A DNA stretch of 64,000 nucleotides. It comes from Crambe crambe. Its lineage: Eukaryota > Porifera > Demospongiae > Poecilosclerida > Crambeidae. Below are positions 27,226 through 64,000 of the stretch, one piece after another; positions within the stretch are counted from its first letter, which is position 1; each line of letters begins with the position of its first letter. Position numbers and translations under genes: made by a program. The stretch covers positions 6,793,205 to 6,857,204 of the forward strand of contig OZ004588.1 in the NCBI GenBank assembly GCA_963924555.1. Direction: 5' to 3'. The notes under the pieces were generated by a model. That model did no database searches. It saw only the letters and a list, made by a program, of their open reading frames with translations, and was not told the DNA's origin.

Positions 27226-30200
27226 ATGATTCCTGTTCTTCGACAACTAGTCGCTACAATAATAGTGTATTTAGTGTATCCAGATATCGTAGCTGGTGGT
27301 ACAGTCACTGTGAGCTTCACTTTGAATAGAGTGCGCAATTCTAATTGCTTAGGCGAGGAGGTGGACTTGACCAATGCTTCAATCCAGTTCCAGTACAGAA
27401 CCATCAGTAATTCACCAGCTATAGGGGACTGGATAACAGAGGATGTAATACCTCTCGTATTAAGTATAAATCGTCGAACAAACTACTTGAACTTTGACAG
27501 CACTGTGGAAGGTGTGCAGTTTAGGCTGCTGCAACTGGAACATGGTGGAGGAGGATGCAATTGCTGGGAAATGCGATCCTTTGCAATTACTAACATTATA
27601 CTGCCTGCACCACTACAACCTTGTTATTCTAGAGGGACTCATTCAAGATCTATCAATGAATTGTACTGTAATGGCATTGCAAGTGATGCTCGGGGAATGA
27701 TCTCTCATGCACTGTATTTTAATGGCATGAATGATGAGGACTGTCCAGGAGACAGCAGTTCAACACTCATCTCTAATAAAGGTCTTCTTCTACCACAGGA
27801 TTGCTCCACAGTCATCCCTAGAATGTAAGCTAATAATTATAAACATTTGTTAGCCGCTACAGTTACCTAGTTAGCTAGTTACTCCACTCCAAATTGCATG
27901 CATGCCTAAATAATTACAGCAGGTGGCTAAATAATAAACTGAAAGGTGCTAACCGCCTACTTGAAGTTTTAGCTTGTACCGCAAGAATTCACATGTTGGA
28001 ATGTGACCTATGATAGGGCTGAATGTAAGAAATCACTTTTAGGAATCTCGACTTCATTCAAATAACCAATTGTTTGTTTGTTTGCTTTTTGCCTACAATG
28101 GGTATTTGCATAGTTTGTAGCTATTAGATGCTCAAATAGATACTCATGCTAACTGTTAAGCTTCCAAAAAATCAGTTACTAAGAGAACTCTTCTACGATG
28201 GTCCATTTGCCTCTATATTTTAGCATTGTGATTTTTATGCATGGCTCGTCAATCTTAGTTATTGCCTTCTTTGTCAGTTGAGTTCATGCCTCTATAGACA
28301 TTTTCCCAAACTTAGTTGTTGGCTTAGAAAAGGTACTCTTTGACGAAAACACACTTTCTAGCAGCTATACATAATAATTATAAGATTGTACACATCAATA
28401 GCATAATAATAGGCAAAGACTGATATTCGATACACTAAGCTACAAAGTCACAAGTAGTCATGAGAAAGAGAGCCAACAAAACTAAGCTAGTGACTGTCAT
28501 GCATGCAAAATTAGATCTTCAGTCTTCAGTATAACTCCTAGCTATAATACACCAGAAAAAAGAAATCAGTGACATGATAATGCATAATTTATAGTCAAGT
28601 CTATCAAAGACAAACTTGCAATGGGATAAATCACACCCAAATTATAAGACGTATTGTAGCTAATCCTTAGCTTGTCCCCAGGCCCTCCTTTTTAATTAGG
28701 GCCTGGGGGGGACAAGGTTAGCTAATCCTCTCACGCATGCACATAATAATTATGCATGTGATGAGGATTAAGTTATTGTGGAATTATGACTATGATTATG
28801 GGTATTATAGTGAGATTGTATATGGACTACTATTGAGTGTGGAACATATTGGGAGTGATTCCTGTGATGGAGTTGATGGTGGAGATACTGAATATATTGA
28901 GTTTGCCATGCGTAATAACACCAATGGTGGACCATGGATTCCTCTGCAACTAAGTTACCATGATACTTCCACCCCTCCAACACGTGTGATCAGAGGTTAT
29001 AATGTACCAGCAAGCACCACATCATCCACCGATGTGGTGCAATATACGGTACATATCTGTGGGGATGTCCTACGCACCAATCAGGTTCAGTTTCGCTGGA
29101 TGGGAACAGCTGAGTTGGAGCAGGATGTGGGAACGATGCAGAGAAGACCAAGTAATGATATATGGGCACTGGCGAATGTGAACGCTACCTTGATTGATAA
29201 CAATAATGAAACCACCAGTATACTTGAGGATGGATTTGGTTGTGACAATACAGCATCATGTACTTTAAAGTGAGTGCGGATTATAATTATAATCATATGG
29301 TTAATATTTGCTAATACATTTTCCCTCATTAGTTAGCGTGCAATTAATCCCTAATTGCACTCGTAGTTTTATAATTGCACTCCTACATCTGTGCATGTGC
29401 AGACTGGTAATGCCGTTTCTGAAGATGGTAGGCTAGCTTGAAGTTTTTTTCAAAATGAATAGTAGGTGCTAAGTGGATTGTCTGTCTAGTAGGCCACCCG
29501 GTAGGCTTTTGTAAGTGTTTTGTCAAGCATTACAGGTTCACATTAACAGCTTCCTATATGCGCTGATACAAGTAATCTACCACATGCATGATTAATAGGC
29601 GATCACATGCTTTTGAGTGCAATTTGGATAGTAATTGCATGAGAAACTGGCTAGGTAATAGCCAATCTGACTCTATATAAATCTTTAATCACTTTTCCAG
29701 TTCTTCAAGGTGGAACAATCCAAAAAGAGGAAGTCTAAGTTGTACAGCATGTTTAATGAGTGAACCATGCTTGAATCATTACTTAACATTTGGTGCATAT
29801 GATGAAACCTATACACATGAAGTTACAGTTAGTCGAATTATACTGACTCAAACCTTCTCAGTGGAACCACTTAAGACATCCAGCATGCTGACAACCACAG
29901 GGGCTACAACCCCTGAGATTCCTACCACAATGTTGATAACCACTGAAGCTACAACTCGTGAGGTTCCCACCACCATATCAGCAACCCCTGAGGCTACAAC
30001 TACCATGTCAACCACCCCTGAGGCTATAACCACCATATCAACCAGCCCTGAGGCTACGACCCCTGTTCCCACCACCATGTTGATAACCACCGAGGCTACG
30101 GGTCCTGAGGTTCCCACCACCATGTCAACCACCCCTGAGGTTCCCACCACCATGTCAACAACCCCTGAGGCTACAATCCCTGAAGTTCCCACCACCATGT

Positions 30201-33200
30201 CAGCAATCACTGAGGCTACAACCCCTGAGGTTCCCATCAGCATACTAACAATCACAGAGGCTACAACCCCTGAGGTTCCCACCACCATGTCAACAATCAC
30301 TGAGGCTACAATCCCTGAAGTTCCCACCACCATGTCAACAATCACTGAGGCTACAATCCCTGAAGTTCCCACCACCATATCATCAATCACTGATGCTACA
30401 ACCCCTGAGGTTCCCACCAGCATGCTGACAATCACAAAGGCTACAACCCCTGAGGTTCCCACCACTATGTCAATGATCACTGAGGCTACAACCCCTGAGG
30501 TTCCCACCACCATGTTGACGACCACAAAGATAACAACCCCCACCACCATGTTGGTAATCACTGAGGTCCCTACAACCAGCACAGTTTCACCATTGGTCTC
30601 ATCATTGGTGCGCACAGAGAAATCTCTACAAGAAATGGTCTGTGTGTTAGTTAATTGTGTGTCATTATTACTAATACCTTATCTGTGTAGATCAGGATGA
30701 ATAAGACATTAGAAAAAGTGATCAACACAACTGTAGGTTGAGACACTCAGTGAACTACTACCTATGAGATTTCATGATGTATGCAGGATCCACTGGAGGC
30801 TGTCAACTTAGTTCAAAACCTGACAACCAATGGTGAGCAGCCCAGCACTGCTATATATTTGTTAGGAAGCATTCTCAACAGACTCAACTCAACAGATGCC
30901 AACACACGAGACCAGTTGAGCAGAGTAAGGATAGCTAATAATAACAATCTCATAATTAGTGTACTTCATTGTGCTATATATGCAGGCCTTCATTAGGATT
31001 GGTGACTCCATAACCCAACAGACTGTCAGCAGTGAAAATGTATGTGGTCCATTTAATAATATCCCATTCCTAACTAATAATTAATTATAACACTATAATA
31101 CTATAATACTATAATCCAATAATAATCCTGATGCCAGCTGTCTTGCTTATTTGAAATATGTAATAGTAATTGGCTATAATAGGGACTGATGCAGAGGGCC
31201 ACCCTTGATGACCATCTCCAGGGGGGTAATCTCCATTAAGGCCAGTCCGGCTTTGGCCGGACCAATATTTTTTGAGACAGATTCACTGAATCTCTAGAAG
31301 TAGGAGTGCAATTATAAACTACTGCAATTAGGCATGCGAACTGATGAGGGAAGATGTAATTGCAGTAATTACTGGTAGCTACACTAGTAATTTGTTTACC
31401 ACTAGAAGTGCATATCATCCTGCATACCTCTGGATGACACTTGTTGTCTTACACAAAAAAAAATTAATGGTAAGAAATTTTTTTATCAATATACATGCCA
31501 AACCCCCCCCCCCCCCCTTAGATTGCTTCTCAGACACCTTAATCACACAAAAATTTCCTGGGGGGGGGGGCATGCCCCCAGATGGCAGGCATGCTTCGTG
31601 CACTGTGTGATCATAATAGCCTGACCAAATTTAACCTCAAGATTACACCCCTGATCTCAATAGAGTCAGTGTGGTTGAATGATAATATTCAAAGTTACTG
31701 TATTCACCAAAACAAATAGTGCTTTGTCAGGCCCCCCTTGCATATGCACCCTACAGAATTAGGGTCCCTTCCCTTTCAAAGCTGTTAAATCTTCCCCTAT
31801 AATTATCATGTATAGGAGGTTGATGGAGCCATTGCAGGGAGTTCACTACTGAGTGTGTATGATCGAGTAGCACTTGTAGCATTTCAAGAGGTGAACATTT
31901 TCTCTGGAAACATTGGTTAGTTTACAGTCTGGGTAGCAAAGTATCTATGGCAGCTAATAACAGGAATTAAAAAGACATTAGATCAATTAATTAGTGTAAA
32001 ATTGATGTGGGGATATCAATGCATTGCATGCATGGTCACACCAATTTAGGAGTTGCAGGGTTGCGATATGACACATCACTTCTCTCGTGATATCCTTGAT
32101 CCATGCCCATGGTCAACAAAATCCCAATGGCCATATATATATATATAGGATACTTCTCTATGAAACACTCAGAACAAAACAGATTCTTGCCACATTAGGC
32201 CACTAATTGACTTATGAATTTTTTTTAGTGCTCAACATTCGCCTGCTATCACCTGAAGGTGAAGCATCAAGTCTAGTGACTACTATCAACTCAGCAGACT
32301 TCGATGACACACTTCCTGAGATGTCCCTGCAGATCCCACTTGAGTTGGTCAAAATAGTTAGCAGAAGTACTGGCAATGGAAGTGAGAAAGTGAAGGCAGT
32401 TTCTTTCCTCTACTACAATGTGGAGAACTTGTTTCCAAGTGGTCCACCAAAGATAAATAAGTAAGTAAAAACAGTATCAGTGAGTGAGTTAGCTAGCTAG
32501 CTACACTGTTTCAATCTGGATTGATATCATGCACACCACAGCACTGAACTAGCATCGGGTATAGTGTCCACTGCTCTGCATAATATTGGGGGTGAACAAT
32601 TTTCCACCGAGAACTTGATGCTGGCTTCACCTGTCAGAGTGAACTTTGAGCACTCCAATAGAGTCAAGGTTGGTGAGTTAGTGCTATTTCATGAGAAATT
32701 TGACTCTGCTAGCCTGCCATGACTGATATCTTTGATCTCAAAGGAACAGTTATTGAAAGACAGTTCTTCAGAAATCATTTGCACATTTTGGGAATTTTTG
32801 TCTAGGAGGTAAATGTTCACTTTATAATTAGCCTCATAGCTACCAAGGCCCATTTTAATACCTATGGCAAAGAATGTACAAAAAATAGGCCTGGGTAACT
32901 AGTTAGCTATTGCTTAGTTATGAACATGATTATCAATCAGTTCACAGGACACCATTCTTACTGTTGGGCAGTGGTCTGACAGAGGGTGTAGCAGGAGTGA
33001 CACCCTCTCCAATTCCTCTGTGACAGTGTGTGAATGCAACCACCTCACCCACTTTGCCATCCTGCTGAGTGCTCGACCTTTGAACCTTACTCGACCTGTC
33101 ACACTCTCTCTGCAAATTATTGGAAATGTGGGTGTGTCCATATCACTGGTCACCATGGCACTCACTGTCATCATCTTCATTGCTTTAAAGTACTACATGC

Positions 33201-34403
33201 CAATATTTAATTAGTGAAATTATAAGGGATTTCCCCACAGGCCACTGCGTAACATACGAAGCTTTATCCACATCAACCTCTGCATCAGTCTCGGGATAGC
33301 TCAGCTCATCTTTGTGGTTGGTGTGACTCGTTCTGACCCTTCAAGTGACAGAGTCCCAGTCCACTGCCAGGTCATAGCTGTCCTCCTCCACTACTTCTTC
33401 CTGGTGTCCTTCATGTGGATGCTGATGGAGGGTGTGGTCTTATACATCATTCTCGTAAAAGTGTTTGTCACTAGGACAAAATGCTACATGCTAGTATTCA
33501 TGCTAGTCAGTTATGGTGTCCCCTTACTCTATATGGGTCTCTTGACTCTGCCACTGGGCTTTGCTCTGCCAACACAGCCAAATTATGGATACCCCACTGC
33601 GTAAGCTGATAAGATATTGAATATCCTTATTTTATAACTATGTACATCCTCTTCAGCTGTTTCTTAAATCCTGGCACAAGTTTTATTTGGGTCTTCATTG
33701 TTCCGGTAGTGGTTATTATTCTTGCCAATGTTGGATTATTCATCATGGCTGCTGTCGTCATGTGGCGTCATAAGAAGAGACAAACTGGTGCCATGAACAA
33801 GAAGGACATCAAGTAGGAAAACTACGTCATTTCTAATAACATGTTCACAATTGTTATAGGAAATGGTTGCTTGCATTGGTACCACTGGTGGTGATCATGG
33901 GACTGACGTGGGTGTTTGGAGTACTGATAGTGGAGGTGAAGGAACTACTACCCTTTGCTTACATCTACACCATCATGGTGGCCTTCCAAGGTCTCTTCAT
34001 CTTCTTCCTCTTTGTTATCTTCCCCAAACAAGTCAGAGATGAGTACACCAAGTGGTGGAGGACGAAGGTCAAGACACATACTGGTGAGAATATGGAAACA
34101 AGAAATATTATTGTGAGTTCATACTAAATCAATCGAATCTCCATGGCCATTATACTAACTAGCTAACTAGCTAACTTTCACCTTTTTTTCTTCTTCTTCC
34201 TTACACTGAAGAAAACTGGACAGACCAGTAATAATTCAAAGATGAATGCCAGCTCAAATATATATGAGAGTGGTGGGTTCAAGTCATGGAAGGTGGAAGA
34301 GGTGGTACTGGAATCAAAGGCTGAGCTCTCACTGATCAAAGAAAACCCATATGCTGAAACATGTGTGTCAACAGAAGAAGAAAATCACGAAGAAATTAAT
34401 TAA
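27226..34403 (+). CDS. Adhesion GPCR, array copy A (complete, 15 exons)
   Basis: Predicted 1,319 aa. Exons: 27226-27824, 28811-29269, 29701-30637, 30691-30732, 30787-30924, 30986-31039, 31819-31915, 32229-32460, 32542-32668, 32744-32808, 32941-33189, 33241-33600, 33657-33812, 33860-34112 and 34212-34403. All phases agree. After a signal peptide (LVATIIVYLVYPDIVAG) come two Cys-rich modules. Their HGGGGCNCWEMRSFAI and FRWMGTAELE ... WALANVNATL patterns resemble Reelin-type beta-sandwich repeats (inference). A ~240-residue Thr/Pro mucin region with TTPEVPTTM repeats follows, then a GAIN region (exons 4-10). The GPS (GQWSDRGC ... CECNHLTHFAIL) keeps the HL|T self-cleavage motif, with THFAILLSA as the likely tethered agonist. 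Seven class-B2-like helices follow (FMWMLMEGVVLYII, GLTWVFGVLIVEV). The tail contains ENPYAETC. I see no lesion. Confidence 0.9.
28671..28716. repeat. GC-rich hairpin in intron 1 of copy A
   Basis: CTTGTCCCCAGGCCCT pairs with AGGGCCTGGGGGGGACAAG across a short AT-rich loop. It is a compact fold-back insertion in otherwise AT-rich intron DNA. Confidence 0.6.
29880..30590 (+). repeat. Mucin-coding minisatellite of copy A
   Basis: About twenty imperfect 36-45 bp units encode variants of TEATTPEVPTTMST. Units are diverged (ITEATIPEV, ITDATTPEV), so this array is older or less homogenised than the one in copy D. Confidence 0.8.
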
Positions 34404-34546
34404 AATTACTTTAATACTATAATTATTATAATAGCTTACAATCATAATTGATATAGTCATAACATAAGTAGCTGCTTATGAATAATATCTGGATAACTTG
34501 CACCCATGAAGCATGTAAGTAAATCTTGTTAAATCTTGTTATTAAT

Positions 34547-34581
34547 CCTCAGTGTGCATGCCCAGGGCATGCACACTGAGG
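34547..34581. repeat. Near-perfect 35-bp palindrome at a duplication junction
   Basis: CCTCAGTGTGCATGCCC, one A, then its exact inverse GGGCATGCACACTGAGG. The left arm is the normal 3' flank of these receptors (compare 46134-46148 after copy C). The right arm is followed at once by receptor exon-13 sequence that starts in mid-exon. Confidence 0.85.
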
Positions 34582-35303
34582 GTCTTCATTGTTCCGGTAG
34601 TGGTTATTATTCTTGCGGATTATTCATCATGGCTGCTGTCGTCATGTGGCATCATAAGAAGAGACAAACTGGTGCCATGAACAAGAAGGATATCAAGTAG
34701 GAAAAAACTACATCACTTCAAATAGAATAGCCATTCACAATATGTTATAGGAAGTGGTTTGTTGCATTGGTACCATTGGTGGTGATCATGGGACTGACGT
34801 GGATACTGGGGGTGCTGATAGTGGAGGTGAAAGCATTACTACCCCTTGCTTACATCTACACTATCATGGTGGCCTTCCAAGGTCTCTTCATCTTTCTCCT
34901 CTTTGTCGTCTTCCCCAAATAAGTCAGAGACGAGTACACCAAGTGGTGGAGGACAAAGGTCAAGACATCTACCCTTCTTCATGAATACTTTGGTGAGAAT
35001 AAAGAAGCAACAAATATTATCGTAAGTTCATGATAGATCACACAACTGCTTAACAACCATGAATGTACAGCCTTAATTGAAATCCATGGTCGGTCATTAA
35101 TTTCCTTGTATGAAACTCCTATAGCACCTATTAATAGCTAGCTATCTATTTCAACTCCCACATATTTTAATGTGCTGAAGATAACTGGACAGACCAGATG
35201 GAAGGTGGAAGAGGTGGCATTGGAATCAAAAGCTGACCTCTCACTGATCAAAGAAAACCCATACGCTGAAACATGTGAAGAAAATCACAAAGAGATCAAC
35301 TGA
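34582..35303 (+). pseudogene. 3' fragment of an adhesion GPCR (exons 13-15)
   Basis: The fragment begins inside exon 13 at the codons for FIVPVVVII, then has a deletion that removes the codons for LANVGL. A full exon-14 copy (about 34752-35022) follows, with an in-frame TAA in place of CAA in the FPKQVRDEY motif (about 34919-34921). An exon-15 copy (about 35177-35303) lacks part of the Ser/Asn-rich stretch but keeps ENPYAETC. There is no upstream gene body. The wording of exon 14 (TWILGVLIVEV) is closer to copy D than to copy A. Confidence 0.85.
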
Positions 35304-35562: not shown

Positions 35563-37029
35563 ATGTTCTCTATTTTTAAAGAAACAGTCGCCATCCTAAT
35601 GGTAGTGTTTTTACTAGATATAGTTTTAGTGCATAATTCGTCAGGCACCGTGAACGTCGCTATAAGTAACTACACAGACCGTCAGTGGACTTGTATAAGT
35701 GGTGAGGAGGTGGGCTTGACTAATACTTCAGTTCAATTCCAGTACAGAACCATCAGTACCACGTCAGACATTGGTGACTGGATAACACTGGCTGCACTAC
35801 CTGTTAATGCAACATCTTCTACAACTCCTACCTTGGACTTTAATGACAGTGTGAAGGGTGTACAGTTCAGACTACTGTAGTTAGAGCATGATGGAGGAGG
35901 ATGCAACTGCTGGAGAATGGAAGCATTCAGCTTTATGACAATATCAGAAGATGCTTGTTATATCAAAGGATCACAGTCACAGTCGAGTCAAGATCAATTG
36001 GCGATCGTAGATTCTGTGGTGGCATTGCAAGTGATGCTAGGGGACTGATCTCTCGTGATGCTGTACGTACTTTAATGGTTCAAATGATGGTGAGGACTGT
36101 AGGAGATAGCAATTCAACACTCATCTCTAACAAGGGCCCCTCTCTACCACAGGACATGGATTGTTCCACAGCCATAAGCTCTGCATGTAGAAACTAGCTA
36201 TAGCTATAGCTATAAAATTTGATGATTCCCCAACTATATATAATAATTAGTCAGCTGTTTCATAATGATACTGAGTGATTGCATAATGTTTTAGTGTGGT
36301 TACATATGGACTTCTGCTGGATGTGGATACGGCTTCGAGTTATTGTGGTGGGATTGGTGGAGATTCTGACACTGATTCTAATGCGTTTGCCATGCGTAAT
36401 AACACCAATGATGGACCACGGATTCCTCTGCAACTAAGTTACCATGATACTTCCATCCTTCCAACACGAGTGGTCAGAGGTTATGATGTACGTACCAGCA
36501 AGCACCACACCATCCACCAATGTGGTGCAACATACTGTGCATATCTGTGGGGACATCCTACTCACCAATCAGGTTCAATTTTGCTGGATGGGGACAGCCA
36601 CTTTATTTCTAAGAAGAAGATTCTTAAGCTGATCATGTGATGACGCATGGGCACTGGCAAATGTGAAAGCTATTTTAATTGATGACAATAATGAAACTAC
36701 AAGTCTTTTTAGTGATGGATTTGGTTGTGACAATCAGAATCCACATTCATGTGTTGTAAAGTGAGTTAATAGCCATTGGTATCAATCATTTATATAGAGA
36801 CTGACTCATAATAAGTTTAATTTCAGTTCTTCATTGTGGAGGGAGCCAAGGAGAGGAAGTCTAAATTGTACAGCATGTTCAGATACTAAGCCATGTAGGA
36901 ACCATTACTTAACATTTGGCGCAAATGCGGAATACAAACGTCGAGAAATGGTTACTCGAGTCGCATTAACTCAGAATTTCTCAGTGGAACCATTCATGAT
37001 GACCGCAAATCCATCAACTGATTTTGAAC
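35563..37029 (+). pseudogene. Array copy B, decayed 5' end of an adhesion GPCR
   Basis: Recognisable equivalents of exons 1-3 are present, closest to copy E (MFSIFKETVA, LVHNSSGTVNVAI). Exon 1 has a TAG at 35878-35880 where the other copies read CAG (LLQLEHGG), plus later frameshifts. Exon 2 (from about 36296) keeps VTYGLLLDVD and RNNTNDGPRIPLQL but is frameshifted near 36489, and the segment after FCWMGTA is scrambled. Exon 3 (from about 36829) ends after PSTDFEP, where the mucin region should begin, and runs into unrelated sequence. No GAIN or transmembrane exons follow. Two of the frameshifts are GTAC to GTACGTAC duplications (see findings). Confidence 0.88.
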
Positions 37030-37185
37030 CCATGGAGCTGATAGAGCTGATCTCTCTCTGTATACATATCTATGAGCCCTTGATGGCTCTTGGGCTGTTC
37101 ATAAACCAATTAATAGAGATCTTATTTTCAAGAAGGAGGTTAGATCCGGAAAATTCTTTACTTTTGCAAAGGAACTATGAGTGAA

Positions 37186-50000: not shown

Positions 50001-53000
50001 GTAACAACCAATGAGACCTCCACCACTATGTCAACAACCACTGAGGCCCCTACCACTATGTCTACAACTACTGAGGCCCCTACCACTATGTCTATAACTA
50101 CTGAGGCCCCTACTACTATGTCAACAACCGCTGAGGCCCCTACCACTATGGTAACAACCAATGAGACCTCCACCACTATGTCAACAACCACTGAGGCCCC
50201 TACCACTATGGTAACAACCAATAAGACCTCCACCACTATGTCAACAATCACTGAGGCCCCTACTACTATGTCTATAACTACTGAGGCCCCTACTACTATG
50301 TCTATAACCACTGAGGCCCCTACTACTATGTCTACAACCACTGAGGCCCCTACTACTATGTCAACGACTACTGGGGCCCCTACCACTATGTCTATAACCA
50401 CTGAGGCCCCTACCACTATGTCTATAACCACTGAGGCCCCTACTACTATGTCTACAACCACTGAGGCCCCTACCACTATGTCTATAACTACTGAGGCCCC
50501 TACCACTATGTCAACAACTACTGGGGCCCCTACCACTATGTCTATAACTACTGAGGCCCCTACCACTATGTCTATAACCACTGAGGCCCCTACTACTATG
50601 TCTACAACCACTGAGGCCCCTACTACTATGTCAACAACTACTGAGGCCCCTACCACTATGTCTACAACCACTGAGACCCCTACCACTATGTCTATAACCA
50701 CTGAGGCCCCTACTACTATGTTTACAACCACTGAGGCCCCTACTACTATGTCAACAACTACTGAGGCCCCTACCACTATGTCTACAACCACTGAGGCCCC
50801 GACTACTATGTCAACAACTACTGAGGCCCCTACCACTATGTCTATAACCACTGAGGCCCCTACTACTATGTCTACAACTACTGAGACCCCTACAACTATG
50901 TCTACAACTACTGAGACCTCAACCACTCTGCCTACAACTACTGAGACCCCTACCACTATGTCTACAACGACTGAGGCCCCTACCACATTGTCTACAACCA
51001 CTGAGGCCCCTACTACTATATCAACAACCACTGAGGCCCTTACTACTATGTCAACGACCATGATGTCAATAAGCAGCGAGGCCCCTACCAATATTTCAAC
51101 AACCACTGAGGCCCCCACCATTATGTCTACAAACACTGAAATCCCTACCACTATATTTATAACTACTGAGGCCCCTACCACTGTATCAACAACCACTGAG
51201 GTCTCCACCACTCTGTCTACAACCACTGAGATCCCTACCACTATGTCAACGACCACTGAGGCCCCCACCACTATGTCAACAACCACTGAGACCCCCACCA
51301 CTATGTCTACAACCACTGAGACCCCTACCACTATGTCTACAACCACTGAGACCACCGCACTTAGGTCAACAACCACTGAGCCCCTTACCACTATGTCCAT
51401 AACCACCGAGGCCCCTACCACTATGTTAACAATCACTGAGACCCCTACCACTATGTCAACAACCATTGAGACTATATCAACAACCACTGAGACCCCCACC
51501 ACTATGTCAATGACCACTGAGGTCCCTACCACTATGTCTACAACCACTGGGGCCCCTACTACTATGTTAACTACCACTGAGACCCCTACCACTATGTCAA
51601 CAACCACTATGTCTACAACCACTGAGACTTCCACCTCTATGTCAACAACCACTGAGACCCCTACCACTATGTCAATGACCACTATGTCTACAACCACTGA
51701 GACTTCCACCACTATGTCAACAACCACTGAGGCCCCTACCACTATGTCTACAACCACTGGGGCCCCTACTACTATGTCTACAACCACTGAGACTTCCACC
51801 ACTATGTCAACAACCACTGACACTAGGTCTACAACCACTGAAGCCCCTACCACTATGTCTATAACCACTGAGGTCCCAACAACCATTGAGACTATGTCTA
51901 CAACCACTGAGACCCCTACCACTATGTCTACCACTGAGACCTCCACCACTGTGTCAACAACCACTGAGGTCCCTACCACTATATCAACAACCACTGAAAC
52001 TTCCACCACTTTATCAACAACCAGCGAGGCCCCCACCACTATGTTAATAACCACTGAGGCTCCTACCACTATGTCAACCAACACAGTTTCGCCATTAGTT
52101 TCATCCTTAATGAGAACAGTAAAATCTCTACAAGCAATGGTCTGTGTGTTAGTTAATTGTGTGTTATTATCACTAATACCTTATCTGTGTAGATCAGGAT
52201 GAATAAGACATTAGAAAAAGTGATCAACACAACTGTAGGTTGAGACACTCATTGAACTACTACCTATAAGATTTCATGATGTATGTAGGATCCACTGGAG
52301 GCTGTCAACTTAGTTCAAAACCTTGTAACCAATGGTGAGACACCCAGCACTGCTATATATTTGCTAGGGAACATTCTCAACAGACTCAACTCAACAGATG
52401 TCAACCCACGAGACCAGTTGAGCAGAGTGAGAATAATAATTTCTAATGATCAGTGTAACTTATGCATTGTGCTATAATATGTAGGCCTTCATTAGAGTTG
52501 GCAACTCCATAACCCAGCAGACTGTCAGCAGTGAAAAGGTAGGCTAGTAATGCTAGTTATCTTTCTTGCTTTGAATCATTTGTTTAAATATTCAGGTTGA
52601 TCCAGCCGTTACAGGAAGTTCACTGCTGAGTGTGTATGATCAATTTGCTCTTGAAGTATTTCAAGAGGATGGGAACATTTCCTTTGGAAACATTGGTTAG
52701 TTTATTGGTAACAGGTTTCACCTGTAACTCAGTAGGTAAAAGGAGCCTAATAATTATAACTGATCCAATTAATTTAGAACTCATAAGATGGCCACTACGT
52801 AGCTAATGCACTTATTATGACTACATGTATTATTTAGTACTCAATACTCTTCTGCTATCACCTGAATGTGAAGCATCAAGTCTAGTGACTACTATCAACT
52901 CAGCAGACTTCAATGACACACTTCCCGAGACATCCTTGCAAATCCCATGTGAGTTGATCCGAATAGTTAGCAGAAGTGGCAAGGAAGGTGAGAGAGTGAG

Positions 53001-55421
53001 GGCAGTTGCCTTCCTCTACTATAATGCGGAGAACCTGTTTCCAAGTAGTCCACCAAAGACAAATAAGTAAGTATATAAGAACACTAGTAATGGTGAGCTA
53101 TACTGTCAGTGTGATATGCACACAGCACTGAACTAGTATCGAGTATAGTGTCCACAGCTCTGCATAATATTGGAGGTGAACAATTTTCCACTGAGAACTT
53201 GACGTTGGATTCACCTGTCAGAGTGAACTTTGAACACACCAATAGAGTCAAGGTTGGTGCTATTTTATGAGGAATTTGACTCTGCTACATATAGTCTGGT
53301 ATTTTTTTGATCTCAAAGGAACAGTTACTGAAAGACAGTTCTTCAGAAATCATTTGCACATTTTGGGAATTTTTGTCTGGGAGGTAAATGCTCACTTTAT
53401 AATTAGCCTCGTACCAAAGTCCATTTTAATACCTATGGCAAAGAATGGCTTCATTGTAGGTACAAAAAATAGGCCTAGGTAACTAGTTATTGCTTAGTTA
53501 TGTATGTGATTATCAATCAGTTCACAGGATGCCATTCTTACTGTTGGGCAGTGGTCTGACAGAGGGTGTAGCAGGAGTGACACCCTCTCCAATTCCTCTG
53601 TGACAGTGTGTGAATGCAACCACCTCACCCACTTTGCCATCCTACTGAGTGCTCGACCTTTGAATCCTTCTCCACCTATCGCACTCTCTCTGCAAATAAT
53701 TGGATATGTGGGTGTGTCCATGTCACTAGTTGCCATGGCACTCACTGTCATCATCTTCATTGCTCTAAAGTATTACATGCCAATATTCATTAATTAGTAA
53801 AATTTGAAGGGATTTCCCCACAGGCCACTGCGTAACATACGAAGCTTTATCCACATCAACCTCTGCATCAGCCTCGGGATAGCTCAGCTCATCTTTGTGA
53901 TTGGTGTGAGTCGTTCTGACCCTACAAGTGACAGAGTCCCAGTCCACTGCCAGGTCATAGCTGTCCTTCTCCACTACTTCTTCCTGGTGTCCTTCATGTG
54001 GATGCTGATGGAGGGCGTGGTCTTGTACATCATTCTTGTAAATGTGTTTGTCACTAGAACGAAATGCTACATGCTAGTATTCATGCTAGTCAGTTATGGT
54101 GTCCCCTTACTCTATATGGGTCTCTTGACTCTGCCACTGGGCTTTGCTCTGCCAACACAGCCAAATTATGGATACTCCACTGCGTAAGCTGATAAGATAT
54201 TGAGTATCACTATAGCTACTTATTTTATAACTATGTACATCCTCTTCAGCTGTTTCTTAAATCCTGGCACAAGTTTTATTTGGGTTTTTTATTGTTCCGG
54301 TAATGGTAATTATTCTTGCCAATGTTGGATTATTCATCATGGCTGCTGTCGTCATGTGGCGTCATAAGAAGAAACGAATTCGTGCCATGAACAAGAAGGA
54401 AATCAAGTAGGAAAACTGCAACATTTTAAAAATAACATATTCACAATAATTATTGTTATAGGAAGTGGTTGCTTGCATTGGTACCACTGGTGGTGATCAT
54501 GGGACTGACGTGGATACTGGGGGTGCTGATAGTGGAGGTGAAGGCACTACTACCCTTTGCTTATATCTACACCATCATGGTGGCCTTCCAAGGTCTCTTC
54601 ATCTTCCTCCTCTTTGTCATCTTCCCCAAAAAAGTCAGAGATGAGTACACCAAGTGGTGGAGGACAAAGCTCAAGACATGTGCCTTTCTTTGTGAATGCT
54701 TTGGCAAGAATAAAGAAGCAACAAATAATATCGTAAGTTCATGATACCTACCACACAACTGCTTAACCATTGAATACAAACACTAATTGAGATGGTCATT
54801 AATTTCCTGGTATAGTATGAAATTCTAAGTTAATTGAACTTCGAGTGAGCTGACTCTTAGGAAATACCCCAGGCGTATGTACGTACATGTCGTGCCTTTT
54901 GGGCAGCAGGCACAAAGCTTATCTAAGCAGATTGTAGGTGCTAGGCTTATCTAAGTGCTTTGAGGTAAGCATTACAGCTTAGCTGCCTGCCACTTACATA
55001 TAAACTCACAGCAGGAGTGTTGAAGCACAAATGAATATCAGCACAAAAGCCTATAGGAATACTTGCTCGCTGTAACACAAATGTTGTACATTGCCCTAGT
55101 AGCTAGCTATCTATCATTCACTTTTTTGTTTTGTTGTTGTTGTTGTTGTTTTCATTTTTGTCATATTTTAATGTGCTGAAGATAACTGGACAGACCAGCA
55201 CTTCAAAGACAAGTGCCAGCACAAACATCTCTGGGAGTGGTGGATTCAAGTCGCAGAAGGTGGAAGAGGTGGTACTGAAATCAAAACCTGAGCTCTCACT
55301 GGTTATAGAAAACCCATATGCTGAAACATGTGTGTCAACAGAAGAAAATCACAAAGAAATCCCATATCTTTCTTACAATAATAGCTTACAGAATCACATT
55401 GATAGTCATATAAGTTCTTAG
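47096..55421 (+). CDS. Adhesion GPCR, array copy D: Calx-beta plus giant mucin domain, frameshifted
   Basis: Exons: 47096-47245, 47676-47885, 48574-52139, 52193-52234, 52289-52426, 52485-52538, 52596-52695, 52838-53066, 53126-53252, 53319-53383, 53521-53769, 53824-54183, 54250-54406, 54462-54732 and 55182-55421 (about 1,985 codons plus a missing start). The first two exons form a Calx-beta domain (IEFEQLLYSIQESE; INITALDDDLLEGDEMFSIS; VATVMIQDGDS) instead of the Cys-rich modules. It joins in phase to a 1,189-codon exon, nearly all Thr-rich 10-residue repeats (TTEAPTTMST). GAIN, GPS (CNHLTHFAIL), helices and the ENPYAETC tail follow, closest to copy A in the GAIN part. Exon 13 is 157 nt, one more than the 156 in A, C and E, because of an extra T after ATTTGGG. 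This shifts the frame within a transmembrane helix, so it is a recent pseudogene or a homopolymer sequencing error. Confidence 0.8.
47367..47435. repeat. Segment shared with the end of copy B
   Basis: CTCTTGGGCTGTTCATAAACC and TTGCAAAGGAACTAT recur at 37087-37180, where copy B breaks off. It is a dispersed or co-duplicated non-coding segment. Confidence 0.6.
47920..47964. repeat. (CTGT)n tetranucleotide repeat
   Basis: About eleven CTGT units with one CTGC variant lie in the intron after the Calx-beta exons of copy D. Confidence 0.9.
48594..52080 (+). repeat. Mucin-coding 30-bp minisatellite of about 116 units
   Basis: The array consists of 30-bp units of the type ACCACTGAGGCCCCTACTAC plus TATGTCTACA, encoding TTEAPTTMST. 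Most of it stays in the 30-bp register; a few shorter units near 51060, 51470, 51600 and 51900 break it by whole codons. Higher-order blocks of several units recur (for example the TMVTTNETST block four times between 49840 and 50180), showing recent block duplication. The reading frame is never lost. Confidence 0.95.
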
Positions 55422-56050: not shown

Positions 56051-56227
56051 GATGACCATGAGTATCTGTGTACCTTATGCATTAGATGAAAGAGAAAAGA
56101 AAGTAAATGATAGTTATTAGCTATATGGGTGGGAGTTCAAGAATTTCATGCCAGGAAATTAACGACCATCTCAATTAGAAGCTAGCTATTTCTATGTTCA
56201 TGGTTGTTGAGCAGCTGGTATCATGAA

Positions 56228-56425: not shown

Positions 56426-56477
56426 TAGTCTCGCGCGCCGACCCTTACCAACCGCGAGGGTCGGCGCGCGAGACTAG
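56425..56477. repeat. Perfect 21-bp inverted repeat of the TAGTCTCGCG family
   Basis: CTAGTCTCGCGCGCCGACCC and one more base on the left, and the exact inverse on the right, flank an 11-base loop (TACCAACCGCG). The outer ten bases match the arms at 2123 and 2224. Confidence 0.85.
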
Positions 56478-56991
56478 GGCTACTTCCTGCCATATCTTCA
56501 AGGACCGATCACTAAACTTTGCATCCTTACTTACCTTTGTAACACCTTTCAGAGCGCTCACTTTCTAGAGCATAATGTGAAATATAGCCAGATTTCCAGC
56601 TACTTCTCCACTCTCGATCGTCTTCCGCGGTCTTGAGCTTATAAAGTGATGACCACTACCTAAAGATTACTGATATCTTGAGTGATGACCACTTCCATCT
56701 CTGCAACATCTCACTTTCTAGATTAGAACATCATTTTCTTCTTCGTAGCTATGGTCAAACTGGCACCTCTATTATACAACAACAATAATCTCTGAGCTAT
56801 GTAATCTCAACACAGGTAGCTAGTGGTCAAACTGTGGTCATGCAACCTAAATAATTTCGAAAAAAATTTTTTTGCTGTATTCACATCATCATTTACTTCA
56901 TATCTTCACATCATTTTCTTCAATTATGAACTTCTTAACATGTATATCATGATCTTCATTGGGCTCAAGTTTCACTTGGTTTCTGATATGG

Positions 56992-57031
56992 TAGGGCTAG
57001 GGCTAGGGCTAGGGCTAGGGCTAGGGCTAGC
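56992..57031 (+). repeat. GGGCTA tandem tract
   Basis: About six GGGCTA units, the same hexamer as in the loop at 2159-2192. It resembles, but differs from, the TTAGGG telomere repeat of animals. Confidence 0.85.
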
Positions 57032-57536
57032 TGTGAGTCTAGTTGACTTCGAGGGCCATGCGTGAACTTAGCAGGTGGTTCCAACCAGGAAGCTCCATAC
57101 ATAGAAAGCTGTAAATGCTTACCACAAGCACTTAGAAGTTAGATAGCTAAGCCATAGATACTATAAGCACCTAGATAAGCCTAGCACCTCTAAGCTACGT
57201 CAATCTGAGCATGCGCATTATGCATGCGCAGTGCTACTAATTTGGGACACGTACAATGAGTCATGACGTGACCTGAGAGTCGCTGTATAAGCTATTCATA
57301 AATATTTAATAGCTACTATTCTACGTAACTAGCCTATAGCTAGCTAATTCACCCTTGAAGCATGCAGGATTTTCACTTCTACACACTGCTAGGTATGTAT
57401 TATACATAGTCTATGACAATAATAGGAATCCAGGAAGTAAACTAATCACAATTAGCTAATGATGATTGCATGGACTCAACATCCCTAAAACTATAGCCAG
57501 CCAAACTGTGCATTCTACCTGCTAACCTGTGAGAAA
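57032..57536. other. 5' flank of copy E
   Basis: The stretch includes GACTTCGAGGGCCATGCGTGA (57047-57067), related to the sequence around 46918-46945, and a segment at 57360-57440 (TTCTACACACTGCTAGGTAT) shared with the 3' flank of copy D. I see no coding sequence. Confidence 0.5.
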
Positions 57537-60500
57537 ATGTTCTCTGTTTTTCAAGAAACAGTTGCCATCATGATGGTAGTGTTTTTAGTGCATAATTCAA
57601 TAGCAATAGTGTCAGACACTGTGAATGTCGCTATAAGAAACTACGATAGTGACACCTGTATAGGTGATGAGGAAGTCGGCTTGACGGATACTTCAATCCT
57701 GTTCCAGTACAGAGCCATCATTAATACCTCAGTCATTGGTGACTGGAGAACACTGGCTGCTTTACCAGTTGATACTATCAAGGGTGTGCAGTTCAGACTG
57801 CTGCAGCTGGAACATGGTGGAGGAGGATGCAACTGCTGGGAAGTGCAGTCATTCAGCATTACTATCAACAACAGGGCAATATCAGAAGATGCTTGTTATA
57901 TCAAAGGATCACAGTCTGAGTCAAAATCAATTGGCAATCGTAGATTCTGTGGTGGCATTGCAAGTGATGCTAGAGGACTGATCTCTCGTGTGCTGTACTT
58001 TAATGGTGCAAATGATGGTGAGGACTGTCCAGGAGATAGCAGTTCAACACTCATCTCTAACAAGGGCCCCCCACTACCTCAGGACTATGATTGCTCCACA
58101 GCCATCCCTAGAATGTAAGCTGTTCATGCAGAGAAGATAGCTAGCTATAGCTTAATGATATACTGAGTGATTGCATAATGTTTTAGTGTGGTTACTTATG
58201 GACTTCTACTGGATGTGGACACAAGTAATTGTGATGGGATTGGTGGAGATTCTGACAATGAATATATTGAGTTTGCCATGCGTAATAACACCAATGATGG
58301 ACCATGGATTCCTCTACAACTAAACTACCATAATACTTCCATCCCTCCAACAAGAGTGGTCAGAGGTTATAATGTATCAGCAAGCACCACATCATCCACC
58401 AGTGTGGTGCAACACACTGTGCATATCTGTGGGGACGTCCTACGCACCAGTCAGGTTCAGTTTCGCTGGATGGGGACAGCCACTTTGAGACCAAGCCGAT
58501 CACGTGATATATGGGCACTGGCAAATGTGAATGTTACTTTAATTGATGCCAATAATGAAACTACAAGTCTTTTCAGTGATGGATTTGGTTGTGACAATCA
58601 GAATCCAGCATCATGTGTTGTAAAGTGAGTTGGTACCAATCATCATAGCTAAGACTGATTCATGTAAATTTAATTTCAGTTCTTCATTGTGGAGGGAGCC
58701 AAGGAGAGGAAGTCTAAAATGTAGAGCATGTTCAAATACTTTGCCATGTATGAGCAATTACTTAACATTCGGTGCAAATAAAGTGAGATACAGACTTCTA
58801 GAAATAGTTAGTCGAGTTGCATTAACTCAGAATTTCTCAGTGGAGCCATTTGTGATGACTAAAGTGTCCACAAATCCAACAACTGATTTCACAACCACTG
58901 ACACCCCCACCACCATGGCCCCAACCTCCATGTCAACAACCACTGACAGTGAGGCCTCCACCACTACCATCTCAGCAATAACTGAGGCTTCCACCACCAT
59001 GTCAGCAACAACTGAGGCCTTCACCACCGGCACCATCTCAACAACCACTGAGACACCCATAACAACTGCAGCTCCCACCAGCATGGTTTCACCATTAGTT
59101 ATGAGGTTGATGAACATAGAGAAATCCATACAAAATATGGTCTGTTGTGATGAGTAGCAACACAAGTAGATACATGTAGCATCTTCTTGTTTCTGTAGAT
59201 CAAGATGAACCAGACACTTAAAAGAGTGACCAGCACAACTGTACGTTGAACTTATACTTTGTTAACCTTCTTTGCTAAATTAGGTCTTTACACTCAATGT
59301 GCAGGATCCACTGGAGGCTGTTGACTTAGTTGAGAACCTGACAACCAATGGTGTGCAGCCCAACACTGCTATATATTTGCTAGGGAGCATTCTCAACAGA
59401 TTCAACTCAACAGATGTCAACACACGAGACCAGTTGAGCAGAGTGAGTGAATTGTCTCAAATGGTCATACAGTGAACGAGTTATCATAATTGTTGCTATA
59501 GACCTTTCTCACAGTTGGTAACACCTTAACAAAGCGCAATGAAGAGGTACTTTGTACGTATGTTATAGTAAAACCAGATTAATTTATGGCTGTAATACTT
59601 GAATCAAGTGTGCGAGTATTTGGGAATGTTTAATTGAGCCTAATAGGGAAGATCTTTAAATTTTCTTGTACTATGCTAATGCATGCAATGAGGAGTTTAT
59701 ATAAGCCTATGCATTATTTTAAGTAAATTCCTCCTTATGGTGTTTCCAGACATGGTTACGAGAAATTGTACATGTAAAAACACATAGCTACCCTTCAGGG
59801 AAGGAAGTACTCAGTTGGCATGTATGTAGGTTGATGCAGCCGTTACAGGGAGTTCACTTCTCAGTGTTTATGATCGATTGGCATTTGAAATATTTCAAGA
59901 GGATGGGAATATTTCTGCTGGAAACATCGGTGAGTAGTTAGCTAACAAGTAACACAAATCTTGTATAGCTGTAATTATAATGTTGCTTTTGTAATGAAAG
60001 CACCAGTGGGGTGTATGCAATGTTTGCATGTGAGCCCACTGATGTGGTTTAGTATGCGCATGTGCCACTTTCCAATAAGGGGTGTGTACAGTAGCTAGCT
60101 CTCTAGCCTCGTACCCAGGCTCTAAAATTATGCGGAGGCAGGACTCATACGAAAAAAAGACCAGGAACAAGTGAGATTTCCATGAAATGAAAAAAGATGT
60201 AAGGATGACCATTGCTCAAAAAAGTAAGGAAACAAGAAGGATAGAAATTGGGGAGCAATCTTTATTCTGTATATTCATCAGGGAAAAAAGCCTGGTATCC
60301 ACTGTTTGAAAATTTCATGCGAAATTCCCAGATATTAGCTACTGCGGTTTTAGGGAATACTGCCGCCAATGTACCGGAAGTCCATTGCATGCCATAATAC
60401 AATGTTAATTTTACGAGAATACAAACAGTATCCGGAAAATTACTGCAAACTCAGCATAAAGAATCCTTTTTAGTGTGAGTTAAGGCTTTATTCTACACTA

Positions 60501-63500
60501 GATAGTAAACGTGCATTGAAAGATATTCAAGCATATGGAAGATTTATTCAAGAAGGTAATGATAGTATCATTAGACTTCCTGAGGCTGAGAGTGCGCTGA
60601 GTCCAAGTAGCTACACAGACTGAAAGTACCAGTGGAGAGAGTGGTCAAATTTCATTCCTCCATGAATTAGTACTAAGATGTATCACTCTGAGTATTTAAT
60701 GTGATGATGCAACTTTTTTCACAAAATTCCTTCAAAATAATTTCATTGCAAGAACCCAAGAAGACATTTCCCCCCATGGAAAGAGTACTAAAACATTCGA
60801 TCTTTCCTGAGCCTAGATTCATGTTATATAATATTATATGTACAGACACCACTATTTGGTGAACAGCTGACATATACTAACACAGCATGGCAGCAAAGAA
60901 GTCAGAAATTGTGTTTGATTATGTAAGCACACACTTTATTGGAACAAGTTTGATTTTTGATATAAGATAAGATAAGATAATAAGATAAGATAATAAGATA
61001 GATAATAAGTTGAGCATGAGTTCAATGCATGTCTTACACTGAACAGGAGAAATGGTTTTTGACCACAAATTAGTATTTTTATCAGCCATGATTTCATGGC
61101 ACTAAGATATTATTTACGGTTGTTAAATAGAAAACCGTCAAGCGACAACCGTAAAATACGCATATTTTGGCCTATTGCACATGTGCAATGACGTTTGCGC
61201 ATGCCCAGTACATGGTTGTCGCTTGAAGGGTGGTGTTAAATCCAGCTCTGCACTATTCCCCAATGAACAAATGAATGGAGAGAATTGCTTGCTGCTGCAG
61301 TCCTTGTTCAGTACTAGGTGGGGTTGTCCCAGCTGAGATAGGGCATAAAACAAACACACCGTCCACGAAGAAGAACTGGTACATAAAATGAACTAGAGCT
61401 AGCTGTCAAATGTCTGGCTCTCTAGCTCTAGCTTCTAGAGCCAGCTAGCTAGCTTTCGCTCCCTTGCCATCAACCATAGCTAGCACTTTACAATTCTAAG
61501 CTGCCTGCTTCTTTACTAAACTGCGACATAGAGGTCATTCTGAGGTGAGCAAAAGTTTCGATAATTTTTAGTCTGGCGTCACCCACCCAGCTTTTTTTCT
61601 TGGCTGGCGATGCCAGACTACTCTTGATAGAAGTGCCAGTTTCAAAATCCACGAATCAGAAATCAAGTAAGTATGATTTGCTTGCTGCTAAAACGCTTAC
61701 TTGAGCTTGCATGCCACCCGTATAGCTAGCTGATAGAGCGGGAACAGACAGACAGACAGACAGACAGACAAACTGATGCGCACACTGAATTCCAATCTGG
61801 TAATCTGTAAGTTTACATGCTACATGTCTACATGTACATACAGCTAAAAGGTTATGATGCCACATGTGATGGGCATGTGCACAAATTAATTTCAGCTACA
61901 TGTATTAAAGCTATAGCATATCTTCTCTTGTACAGATAGTGATGAAACTCGTTTCTGTTTTTGTTACAGTACTCAACACTCGTGATTTATCATTTGAAAG
62001 CAAAACTCTCACTACTACTATCAACTCAACAGACTTCAATGACACACTTCCTGAGATGTCCCTGCAGATCCCACGTGAGTTGGTCCGAATAGTTGACAGA
62101 AGTGGCAATGGAAGTGAGAGAGTGAGGGCAGTTGCCTTCCTCTACTACAATGTGGAGAACTTGTTTCCAAGTGGTCTACAAGTGAAAGAAAATAAGTGAG
62201 TAAAAGAGTGAAACCATTACAATGATAGGAGCTCCTATTCATTAGTGTGCTGTTGTAGTACTGAATTGGCATCAGGTATCATATCCACTGCTCTACAAGT
62301 CGGAGAAAGAGAATATCCCACAGAGAACTTGAAATTGGTGCGTGCACCCATCAGAATAAAAATGAAGCACTCGGATAGGATCAAAGTAAGGAGAATGTAG
62401 ATAAGCTGATAATAAACTTCATTCATAGAAGTATAATTTATAGGATCAATATTATTATTCTTGTGTTTATGATAATTATAGAATCAGATGTTGAATGATA
62501 GCAATTTAGAAACCACATGTGTATTTTGGGAATTTGTATCTGGAAGGAGGCAAGTTTGCTTTACACTTTCACATGTCACAAATCAGCTAGCCTTTTGTTA
62601 ATAGTGCACAGAATAACAGCATTCTCAGTGTTGGGCAGTGGTCTAAAGAAGGGTGTAGCAGGAGTGACACCCTCTCCAATTCCTCTGTGACAGTGTGTGA
62701 ATGCAACCACCTCACCCACTTTGCCATCCTACTGAGTGCTCGACCTTTGAACCTTACTCGACCCGTCACACTCTCTCTGCAAATTATTGGATATGTGGGT
62801 GTGACCATATCACTGGTCGCCATGACACTCACTATCATCATAATACTTATTCAGAAGTATGTTGATGTGGTAAAGGATCTATAGCTACCCATAATATCAA
62901 TTTCATTTAGACCACTGTGTAACATGCGTAACATAGTCCACATCAACCTCTGCATCAGCCTCGGGATAGCTCAGCTCATCTTTGTGATTGGTGTGACTCG
63001 TTCTGACCCTACAAGTGACAGAGTCCCAGTCCACTGCCAGGTCATAGCTGTCCTCCTCCACTACTTCTTCCTGGTGTCCTTCATGTGGATGCTGATGGAG
63101 GGTGTGGTCTTATACATCATTCTCGTAACAGTGTTTGTCACTAGGACAAAATGCTACATGCTAGTATTCATGCTAGTCAGCTACGGTGTCCCCTTACTCT
63201 ATATGGGTCTCTTGACTCTGCCACTGGGCTTTGCTCTGCCAACACAGCCAAATTACGGATACCCCACTGCGTAAGCTGATAAGAGATTGAATATCACTAT
63301 AGCTACTTATTTTATAACTATGTACATCCTCTTCAGCTGTTTCGTAAATCCTGGCACAAGTTTTATTTGGGTCTTCATTGTTCCGGTAGTGGTTATTATT
63401 CTTGCCAATATTGGATTATTCATCATGGCTGCTGTCGTCATGTGGCGTCATAAGAAGAGACAAACTGGTGCCATGAACAAGAAGGATATCAAGTAGGAAA

Positions 63501-64000
63501 CAAATAGCTGACATGATTGTTCATAATTCATAATTGTTATAGGAAATGGTTGGTTGCATTGGTACCACTGGTGGTGATCATGGGACTGACGTGGGTGTTT
63601 GGAGTACTGATAGTGGAGGTGAAGGCACTACTACCCTTTGCTTACATCTACACCATCATGGTGGCCTTCCAAGGTCTCTTCATCTTCCTCCTCTTTGTTG
63701 TCTTCCCCAAACAAGTCAGAGATGAGTACACCAAGTGGTGGAGGACAAAGGTCAAGACACATACTGGCAAGAATATGGAAGCAACAAATATTATCGTGAG
63801 TTCATACAACTCCTGCTGATCTCCATGGCCAATATACTAACTAACTAACTTCTTCTTCTTCCTTGCACTGAAGAAAACTGGACAGACCAGTAATTCAAAG
63901 ACGAATGCCAACACAAATGTCTCTGGGAGTGGTGGGTTCAAATCATTGAAGGTGGAAGAGGTGGCATTGGAATCAAAAGCTGAGCTCTCACTGGTTAAAG
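57537..64000 (+). CDS. Adhesion GPCR, array copy E (intact, runs off the window)
   Basis: Exons: 57537-58114, 58187-58624, 58680-59139, 59199-59240, 59305-59442, 59502-59546, 59830-59929, 61970-62195, 62259-62385, 62482-62549, 62605-62856, 62911-63270, 63337-63492, 63543-63795 and 63874 to beyond 64000. All phases agree. The signal peptide region (VAIMMVVFLVHNSIAIV) and Cys-rich modules (HGGGGCNCWEVQSFSI; FRWMGTATLRPSRSRDIWAL) resemble copy B. The mucin region is short (about 75 residues, TEASTTMSATTEA). GAIN exons 8-11 resemble copy C, including the GC donor after exon 10. The GPS is SVGQWSKEGC with CNHLTHFAIL. Helix 1 ends differently (TIIIILIQK), and the next exon begins PLCNMRNIVHINLCI. 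Intron 7 is enlarged to 2,040 bp by repeats. The tail is cut by the window end after VEEVALESKAELSLVK. Confidence 0.88.
59930..61969. other. Enlarged intron 7 of copy E
   Basis: The same intron is 313 bp in A, 675 in C and 142 in D. Here it holds a GATAA repeat (about 60962-61008), the palindrome at 61569-61620 and a GACA tetranucleotide run (61746-61771). The remaining AT-rich sequence shows no coding signal to me. Confidence 0.6.
61569..61620. repeat. Palindromic TAGTCTGGC-ended element
   Basis: TAGTCTGGCGTCACCCACCC on the left pairs imperfectly with GGCTGGCGATGCCAGACTA on the right across a T-rich loop. The ends TAGTCT/AGACTA and the overall size match the TAGTCTCGCG elements. Confidence 0.7.

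Follow-up and report, generated by a model that had tools for sequence, protein, structure and literature searches.

The sponge Crambe crambe (Porifera, Demospongiae) carries on contig OZ004588.1 of assembly GCA_963924555.1, here called C11, a tandem array of ten adhesion G protein-coupled receptor (GPCR) genes, copies A to J. Copies A to E lie in the window, meaning the whole stretch of 64,000 nucleotides at C11:6793205-6857204 that was analysed, and copies F to J lie beyond it, up to about window position 99,800, the array reaching 36 kb past the window end. Genome searches covered the 143-Mb assembly, and flanking DNA was read to follow the array. Judged from their sequences, these genes are very probably recombinants, in which the ectodomain, exons 8-9 and the seven-transmembrane (7TM) domain have been recombined as blocks between copies, and in which a pair of Calx-beta exons replaces the ectodomain of copy D.

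The receptor genes and their arrangement

A typical receptor of the array would comprise two reelin-sub-repeat-like units, a Thr-rich stalk, a GAIN domain with a GPS cleavage site and a 7TM domain of the secretin type (Table 1). The model of copy C was assembled from phase-matched splice sites and an open frame, with four junctions finished by hand; its exons 4-9 make up the GAIN region and exon 14 the C-tail. A Pfam scan of this copy returned 7tm_2 (PF00002, 163.4 bits, cut-off 20.6) and GPS (PF01825, 44.9 bits, cut-off 22.5) only, and the EGF domains of the EGF-TM7 receptors (ADGRE) were not found in it. The motif CNHLTHFAILL stands at the GPS in A and in C to J, and HL/T is the rule for a GPS cleavage site. 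By the 7TM and GPS criteria, as read from sequence, the array copies are adhesion GPCRs (class B2).

A preliminary description of the window had reported a tandem array with four near-complete receptors, A, C, D and E, all built on one 15-exon plan. The array stands, with A, C and E near-complete and B a decayed 5' copy for which body exons were sought and none found. The exon count is 14, and the idea of one plan common to the four receptors had to be given up for D, which departs from it in having no family exons 1-3. Outside the window, copy F keeps an open frame wherever its 14 exons align, H and J keep theirs through exon 13 and have no recognisable exon 14, and G is decayed, with stops in exons 1, 2 and 14 and an exon 9/10 junction for which splice-site fitting gave no solution. 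One-base insertions cause frameshifts in exon 11 of copy I and in exon 12 of copy D (54239-54406), and the damaged copies are thus four of the ten (B, D, G and I).

Table 1. Receptor genes of the array and their parts within the window (window positions)
Feature	Position	Strand	Remarks
Copy A	27226..34400	+	All 14 exons open where aligned; ectodomain type 1, GAIN alpha, 7TM type 1
Copy A exons 8-9 (GAIN alpha)	32542..32808	+	66-70% to C, E, H, I and J; 94-96% to D, F and G
Extra partial 7TM fragment behind A	34580..35197	+	93% to F region
Copy B	35563..37034	+	Decayed 5' part, exons 1-3, with stops and frame changes; ectodomain type 2
Copy C	39947..45879	+	Open 14-exon model, 1161 aa; ectodomain type 1, GAIN beta, 7TM type 1
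Copy C exon 1	39947..40536	+	Signal-peptide-like start, first ectodomain unit
Copy C exon 2	41211..41669	+	Second ectodomain unit; family with reelin-sub-repeat-like members
Copy C exon 3	41735..42251	+	Cys-containing head, Thr-rich stalk
Copy C exons 8-9 (GAIN beta)	44082..44360	+	GC splice donor after exon 9
Copy C exon 10	44419..44670	+	GPS with HL/T site, first transmembrane helix
Copy C exons 11-13	44720..45598	+	Remainder of 7TM domain
Copy D overall	~46.9-55.4 kb	+	Calx-beta pair, Thr-rich stalk exon, receptor body
Copy D Calx-beta exon pair	47096-47245 and 47676-47885	+	Phase 1-1; first boundary and last donor read by hand
Copy D Thr-rich stalk exon	48574..52139	+	3.6 kb, mostly 30-base repeats, stop-free frame
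Copy D body, exons 4-14	52289..55361	+	GAIN alpha, 7TM type 1, exon 12 frameshift
Copy E	57537..64000 in window; last exon to 64053 outside	+	Open in aligned part of all 14 exons

Exon blocks and their combinations

When pairwise DNA identity is taken exon by exon, three blocks stand out, each with two sharply different types. In the ectodomain (exons 1-3), type 1 is found in A, C, I and J and type 2 in B, E, F, G and H, with identities of 80-100% within a type and 64-84% across. Exons 8-9 are of type alpha in A, D, F and G and of type beta in C, E, H, I and J (84-98% within, 65-70% across). From the middle of exon 11 onward the 7TM domain is of type 2 in H and J and of type 1 in the remaining copies, E among them, and identity in exon 12 is 92-100% within a type and 63-68% across. 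The exons that lie between the blocks are closer in all copies (84-99% in exons 4 and 6, 85-95% in exon 10), and exon 7 ranges from 78 to 99%, with E and H standing apart at 93% to each other.

The combination of types varies from copy to copy. Ectodomain and GAIN types occur in all four combinations (1-alpha in A; 1-beta in C, I and J; 2-alpha in F and G; 2-beta in E and H), as do ectodomain and 7TM types. Switch points can be placed in two cases: over about its first 200 bases exon 11 of H agrees with that of C at 95% in 40-base bins, then abruptly at 58% in the two bins that follow, and copy G is 93-95% identical to B and H in exon 1 and the head of exon 3 and 96-100% identical to F from the end of exon 3 through exon 6, which places a switch of G inside exon 3.

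The pairings that first suggested exchange hold up in alignments of the exons. A with C and B with E had been paired in exons 1-2, where identities (exon 1/exon 2) are 87/94% and 80/88% against 64-82% between the pairs; once F to J are included, exon 1 of B is closest to G (93%) and H (92%; E, 80%), and its exon 2 is about equally close to E, G and H (88, 87 and 86%). In exons 8-9 the pairs are A with D and C with E, each at 94% against 67-70% across, and the motifs named as their marks are present, PPKIN in A, PPKTN in D, QMEEN in C and QVKEN in E, together with the alternatives ILTVGQW and ILSVGQW. The GC donor after exon 9 is indeed common to C and E and recurs in I and J. The breakpoints had been predicted in introns 3-7; the switch between exon 3 and exon 8 comes close to this, and that of G falls within exon 3.

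Conflict between trees and synonymous divergence

Separate phylogenies of the segments, proposed at the outset as a check, were computed for eight of the ten copies (A, C, E, F, G, H, I and J; B and D each being without one segment), with exon 5 left out, and compared by log-likelihood difference (deltaL) and the approximately unbiased (AU) test. Ectodomain and exons 8-9 conflict strongly in both directions (AU p<=1.4e-4): the ectodomain data reject the exon 8-9 split (deltaL 398, AU 1.35e-4), and the exon 8-9 data reject the ectodomain split (deltaL 115, AU 1.3e-10). The ectodomain data also reject the split that sets H and J apart (deltaL 424, AU 2e-13), and the ectodomain split is rejected in turn by exon 11 (deltaL 124) and by exons 12-13 (deltaL 135). 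Exons 4-7 reject the H and J split (0.008) and not the exon 8-9 split (AU 0.63). In six control comparisons within blocks deltaL was only 1.5-20.

Synonymous divergence (dS) follows the same blocks. Between A and C it is 0.15, 0.10 and 0.09 in exons 1, 2 and 7, rises to 1.03 in exons 8-9, and falls again to 0.12, 0.07 and 0.18 in exons 10, 11 and 13, a jump of about tenfold between neighbouring exons when set against the 0.07-0.18 of the other six segments. H and J have a dS of 0.73 in exon 1 against 0.09 in exon 11, and A and F one of 0.59 in exon 1 against 0.10 in exons 8-9 (copy J is excluded from dS of exons 8-9). Such jumps over a few hundred bases point to different ages of common descent in different blocks. 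It could be held that no exchange took place, and that ordinary duplication and divergence left some blocks fast under selection and others constrained; the exon 11 protein is indeed more conserved than the ectodomain, and in exon 1 of A and C nonsynonymous divergence (dN 0.146) is nearly equal to synonymous (0.149). This account is nonetheless scarcely credible, given that the block pattern is the same at synonymous sites, that the tree conflict is reciprocal and that the splits cross each other, and ordinary divergence was set aside as the sole cause on the grounds of tree conflict and synonymous divergence.

Related genes on other contigs

The family extends well beyond the array. Exon 11 as query gave 85 genome matches, 36 of them strong (E<=1.6e-47, 68-100% identity), on seven contigs, and exon 1 gave 52. 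Closer comparison of family members covered the C11 array and genes on C6, C5 and C9, and left aside the groups on C3, C8, C14 and C10 and a second group on C11. Three receptor bodies on C6 have a GAIN block of type alpha (exon 8 at 88-93% to A, D, F and G and 70-77% to the others) and a 7TM block of type 1 (exon 11 at 95-97% to all copies but H and J, at 85%); the ectodomains on C6 are distinct (73-80% over the aligned part). The dS between A and C6 is 0.14 in exon 11, against 0.75 in exon 1 and 0.91 in exon 2. Two exon-1 homologues lie in long open frames, at C5:307856-308389 (515 codons) and C6:5339916-5340449 (689 codons), which may point to another arrangement of exons in some relatives.

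A second array, on C9, repeats the pattern. Exon 1 is 89-99% alike in nine of its genes (genes 3694 and 3801 being left aside), and exon 11 is of two kinds, 67-70% alike and mixed along the array; genes g3715 and g3756 agree at 99% in exon 1 and at 68% in exon 11. In a test of ten genes, to which 3694 was added, exon 1 and exon 11 reject each other's trees (AU 1.3e-4 and 5.9e-39); in gene 3801 exon 11 is absent before the next exon 1. The same cross tests on 23 genes, drawn from seven of the ten C11 copies, five of the eight C6 loci fetched, one of the three fetched on C5 and ten of the eleven exon-1 places on C9, gave AU 4.9e-6 and 2.9e-8. By topology, support values not having been read for either tree, the genes group by contig in exon 1, and in exon 11 C6 nests among C11, H and J join the C5 gene and C9 splits in two. 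Since exon 11 of H and J groups with a gene on C5, exchange partners need not be neighbours. The preliminary idea of an exchange of ectodomains and bodies between neighbours is to that extent too narrow, and it does not cover the Calx-beta replacement in D; in other respects trees, dS and the C9 array alike bear it out.

The mosaic could also have arisen in assembly, from haplotypes or related loci joined in tandem into chimeric contigs. Some pieces are close enough to invite the thought (F and G are 97.2% identical over 1.1 kb, I and J 99% in exon 1), and the insertions in D and I are of a kind made by sequencing errors. Set against this are the absence of any N in the 124 kb examined, the distance between copies, up to 36% in exon 1, the different switch points of different copies, and the like pattern on C9 and between C6 and C11, and an artefact appears very unlikely.

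Copy D and its Calx-beta module

Ahead of the stalk exon of copy D no convincing match to family exons 1-3 was found. The second exon of the pair that stands there, the one scanned, matches Calx-beta (PF03160) at 27.6 bits against a cut-off of 27, over profile positions 70-119 of 119. Its protein is 97% identical to that at C14:1345666, and the DNA of the pair agrees with that place at 91-92% in matches of 290 and 195 bases and with C3:5814845 and C14:1485529 at 88-90%. Further Calx-beta-like frames were recognised by eye in the neighbourhoods of these places, where the nearest 7TM match is weak and 42 kb off, on C3. The module of D was probably copied from Calx-beta exons of the kind found at C14:1306929-1557436.

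The sequence makes it probable that copy D is a chimera, a recent Calx-beta duplication united with a receptor body. It may be objected that a fragment of a Calx-beta gene merely precedes a 5'-truncated receptor, and this could well be the case without being probable: the candidate first exon, a signal-peptide-like frame at about 46928, reaches the Calx-beta exon only through a weak acceptor (both read by hand), and the body carries a frameshift. For a chimera speak the splice phases, the donor that follows the Calx-beta exons and the stalk-exon acceptor both being in phase 1 as read by hand, and the stalk exon itself, which ends as in other copies and continues into exon 4.

The 250-kb stretch of C14 named above is a dense run of Calx-beta-like exons and holds 24 of the 36 matches to the Calx-beta exon of D. 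Antisense to the D stalk, an open frame of 1212 codons (48542-52180, minus strand) is probably a by-product of the 30-base repeats.

The nature of the ectodomain

The ectodomain of the other copies appears reelin-sub-repeat-like through its family relations, without amounting to a proven reelin domain. Eight of 13 members of the exon-2 family match the reelin sub-repeat PF21471 at E<=1 (best 1.6e-4), and three members of the family score 12-16 bits against a cut-off of 27; exon 2 of copy C gave no match to this profile, and the copies in the window lie below the cut-off. Genome-wide, there were 11 PF21471 matches among 12 candidates, four over the cut-off, two of these only together with their neighbours. 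Nine of the 11 lie 3-15 kb upstream of a 7TM match on the same strand; for two matches at C5:2113022-2114013 no 7TM match was listed nearby. Two of the 11 (C5:323796 and C5:2113022) coincide with places of exon-1 homologues. At C10:7970197-7982321 there are two reelin-like matches with 7TM matches downstream of them, which may represent a more remote branch.

Other approaches lead to no fold assignment. AlphaFold2 models of exon 1 and exon 2, each computed with the three window sequences, had a mean predicted local distance difference test score (pLDDT) of 44.7 and 33.1, and a Foldseek search with the model of exon 1 found nothing at E<=0.001; in view of the low pLDDT and this result no claim is made on the fold of the ectodomain. 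Profile searches of the PDB with the exon-1 and exon-2 alignments gave no match at E<=10, and Pfam matched exon 1 with three families, each in one of 15 members (best E 0.013).

Mechanism and alternative explanations

The combinations would have arisen when copies on the same or on different contigs underwent unequal crossing-over or gene conversion, with the well-matched exons between the blocks (4-7, 10 and early 11) used for recombination. The module of D would derive, through duplication, from a Calx-beta gene of the kind present on C14 and C3. By analogy with the adhesion-GPCR class, the ectodomain would be a sensor that binds a ligand or surface, with the stalk as spacer; the GPS would cleave itself at HL/T, and removal of the N-terminal part would expose the tethered agonist. 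GAIN and GPS would then serve as a release device and the 7TM domain as the output, and recombination would couple new sensors to new signalling bodies. Exchange of exons 8-9 would affect strands of the GAIN domain that lie near the tethered agonist. The type 2 7TM block, which from general knowledge of class B we take to begin near intracellular loop 2 and transmembrane helix 4 and to cover transmembrane helix 5 and intracellular loop 3, could by its position alter coupling.

Several observations weigh against exchange between blocks as set out here. Exons 4-7 do not reject the ectodomain split (AU 0.21), and exon 10 rejects neither this split nor those of exons 8-9 and of H and J (AU 0.08, 0.47 and 0.42). 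Exons 8-9 and the 7TM block, taken alone, fit one tree with no mutual conflict. Three of the six controls reject at 0.05 (exon 1 against exon 2, AU 0.006 and 0.025; exon 12 data on the exon 13 tree, 0.028), which may reflect some exchange inside blocks or noisy single-exon trees. On C6, C5 and C9 position was the only guide in assigning exon 1 to exon 11, and within the C6 pair 5280 with 5292 there are partial exon-1 matches in between. Copy D contributes its uncertain first exon, and with a one-base frameshift the most extreme chimera may be dead. Finally, the DNA of one assembly is the basis throughout.

Another plausible explanation grants that the recombinants are real and takes them to be neutral, the outcome of gene conversion while the array decays, nothing being gained in combinations of sensor and signal. 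The share of damaged copies fits it, whereas A, C, E and F have an unbroken frame wherever their 14 exons align, H and J have one through exon 13, and the stalk exons, which range across copies from 336 to about 3564 bases, keep their frame; neutrality is a substantial possibility to which we would give less than even weight. Functional recombination could, at its widest, constitute a germline combinatorial receptor system, in which at least three exchangeable cassettes (sensor, GAIN release and 7TM output), existing in a few deep old types, were repeatedly recombined across several contigs and foreign sensors were occasionally captured, changing the pairings of sensor and signal for the recognition of self, neighbours or microbes. 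So far-reaching a system is at present rather unlikely, and it is put forward tentatively.

Other features of the window and array

Behind exon 2 of copy A, positions 29280-29662 match many dispersed places in the genome, and the end of this stretch also occurs inverted beside the same places, so that it resembles a short mobile element ending in a hairpin. Outside the window, a tandem repeat of about 62 bases (L010:2358-3412) separates copies E and F. A long open frame on the minus strand at 2604-4409 matches RING, B-box, filamin and NHL domains and is of the TRIM-NHL type.

Significance and comparison with known systems

An adhesion GPCR links a module outside the cell to a body that signals, and the arrays resemble a natural swap experiment with many repeats. 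On C9 one pair of genes is alike at 99% in exon 1 and at only 68% in exon 11, and on C11 an alpha body stands behind N-termini of type 1 (A), type 2 (F and G) and Calx-beta (D). With such matched pairs one could ask directly whether it is the sensor or the body that determines the ligand, which of them determines the output, and whether the two can truly be interchanged.

ADGRV1 is an adhesion GPCR with Calx-beta repeats, and copy D is like it in having Calx-beta on an adhesion GPCR. It differs in having one pair of such exons, whose DNA agrees at 91-92% with that of a Calx-beta gene elsewhere in this genome; given this identity and the absence of such a 7TM match near the C14 gene, the capture in D was probably independent and recent. 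Calx-beta is listed among adhesion-GPCR ectodomains (PMC12716839). For the sponge Amphimedon, 40 adhesion GPCRs with varied N-terminal domains are described, with mention of domain addition and shuffling, in an account whose main text, as available, does not contain the words reelin, calx or tandem (PMC4302439). The portion of the adhesion-GPCR literature covered by our search yielded no multi-block mosaic array and no reelin-like ectodomain on an adhesion GPCR. Outside the GPCRs, Sp185/333 of the sea urchin and KIR of primates are clustered, rapidly diversified immune families with mosaic segments; the array may be likened to them in being clustered and diversified, a likeness of gene organisation.

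The nearest precedent for recombination between adhesion GPCRs is that of EMR2 (ADGRE2) with CD97 and EMR3, human EGF-TM7 receptors which are reported to undergo gene conversion and to evolve in concert, EMR2 being called a chimera (PMC2720389, citing Kwakkenbos 2006). The array on C11 likewise shows adhesion GPCRs that appear to have recombined between copies. EMR2 is one mammalian chimera with EGF domains, whereas the array has ten copies in which three blocks or more are combined independently, its ectodomains are reelin-like, copy C has no EGF match, and a second array shows similar conflict.

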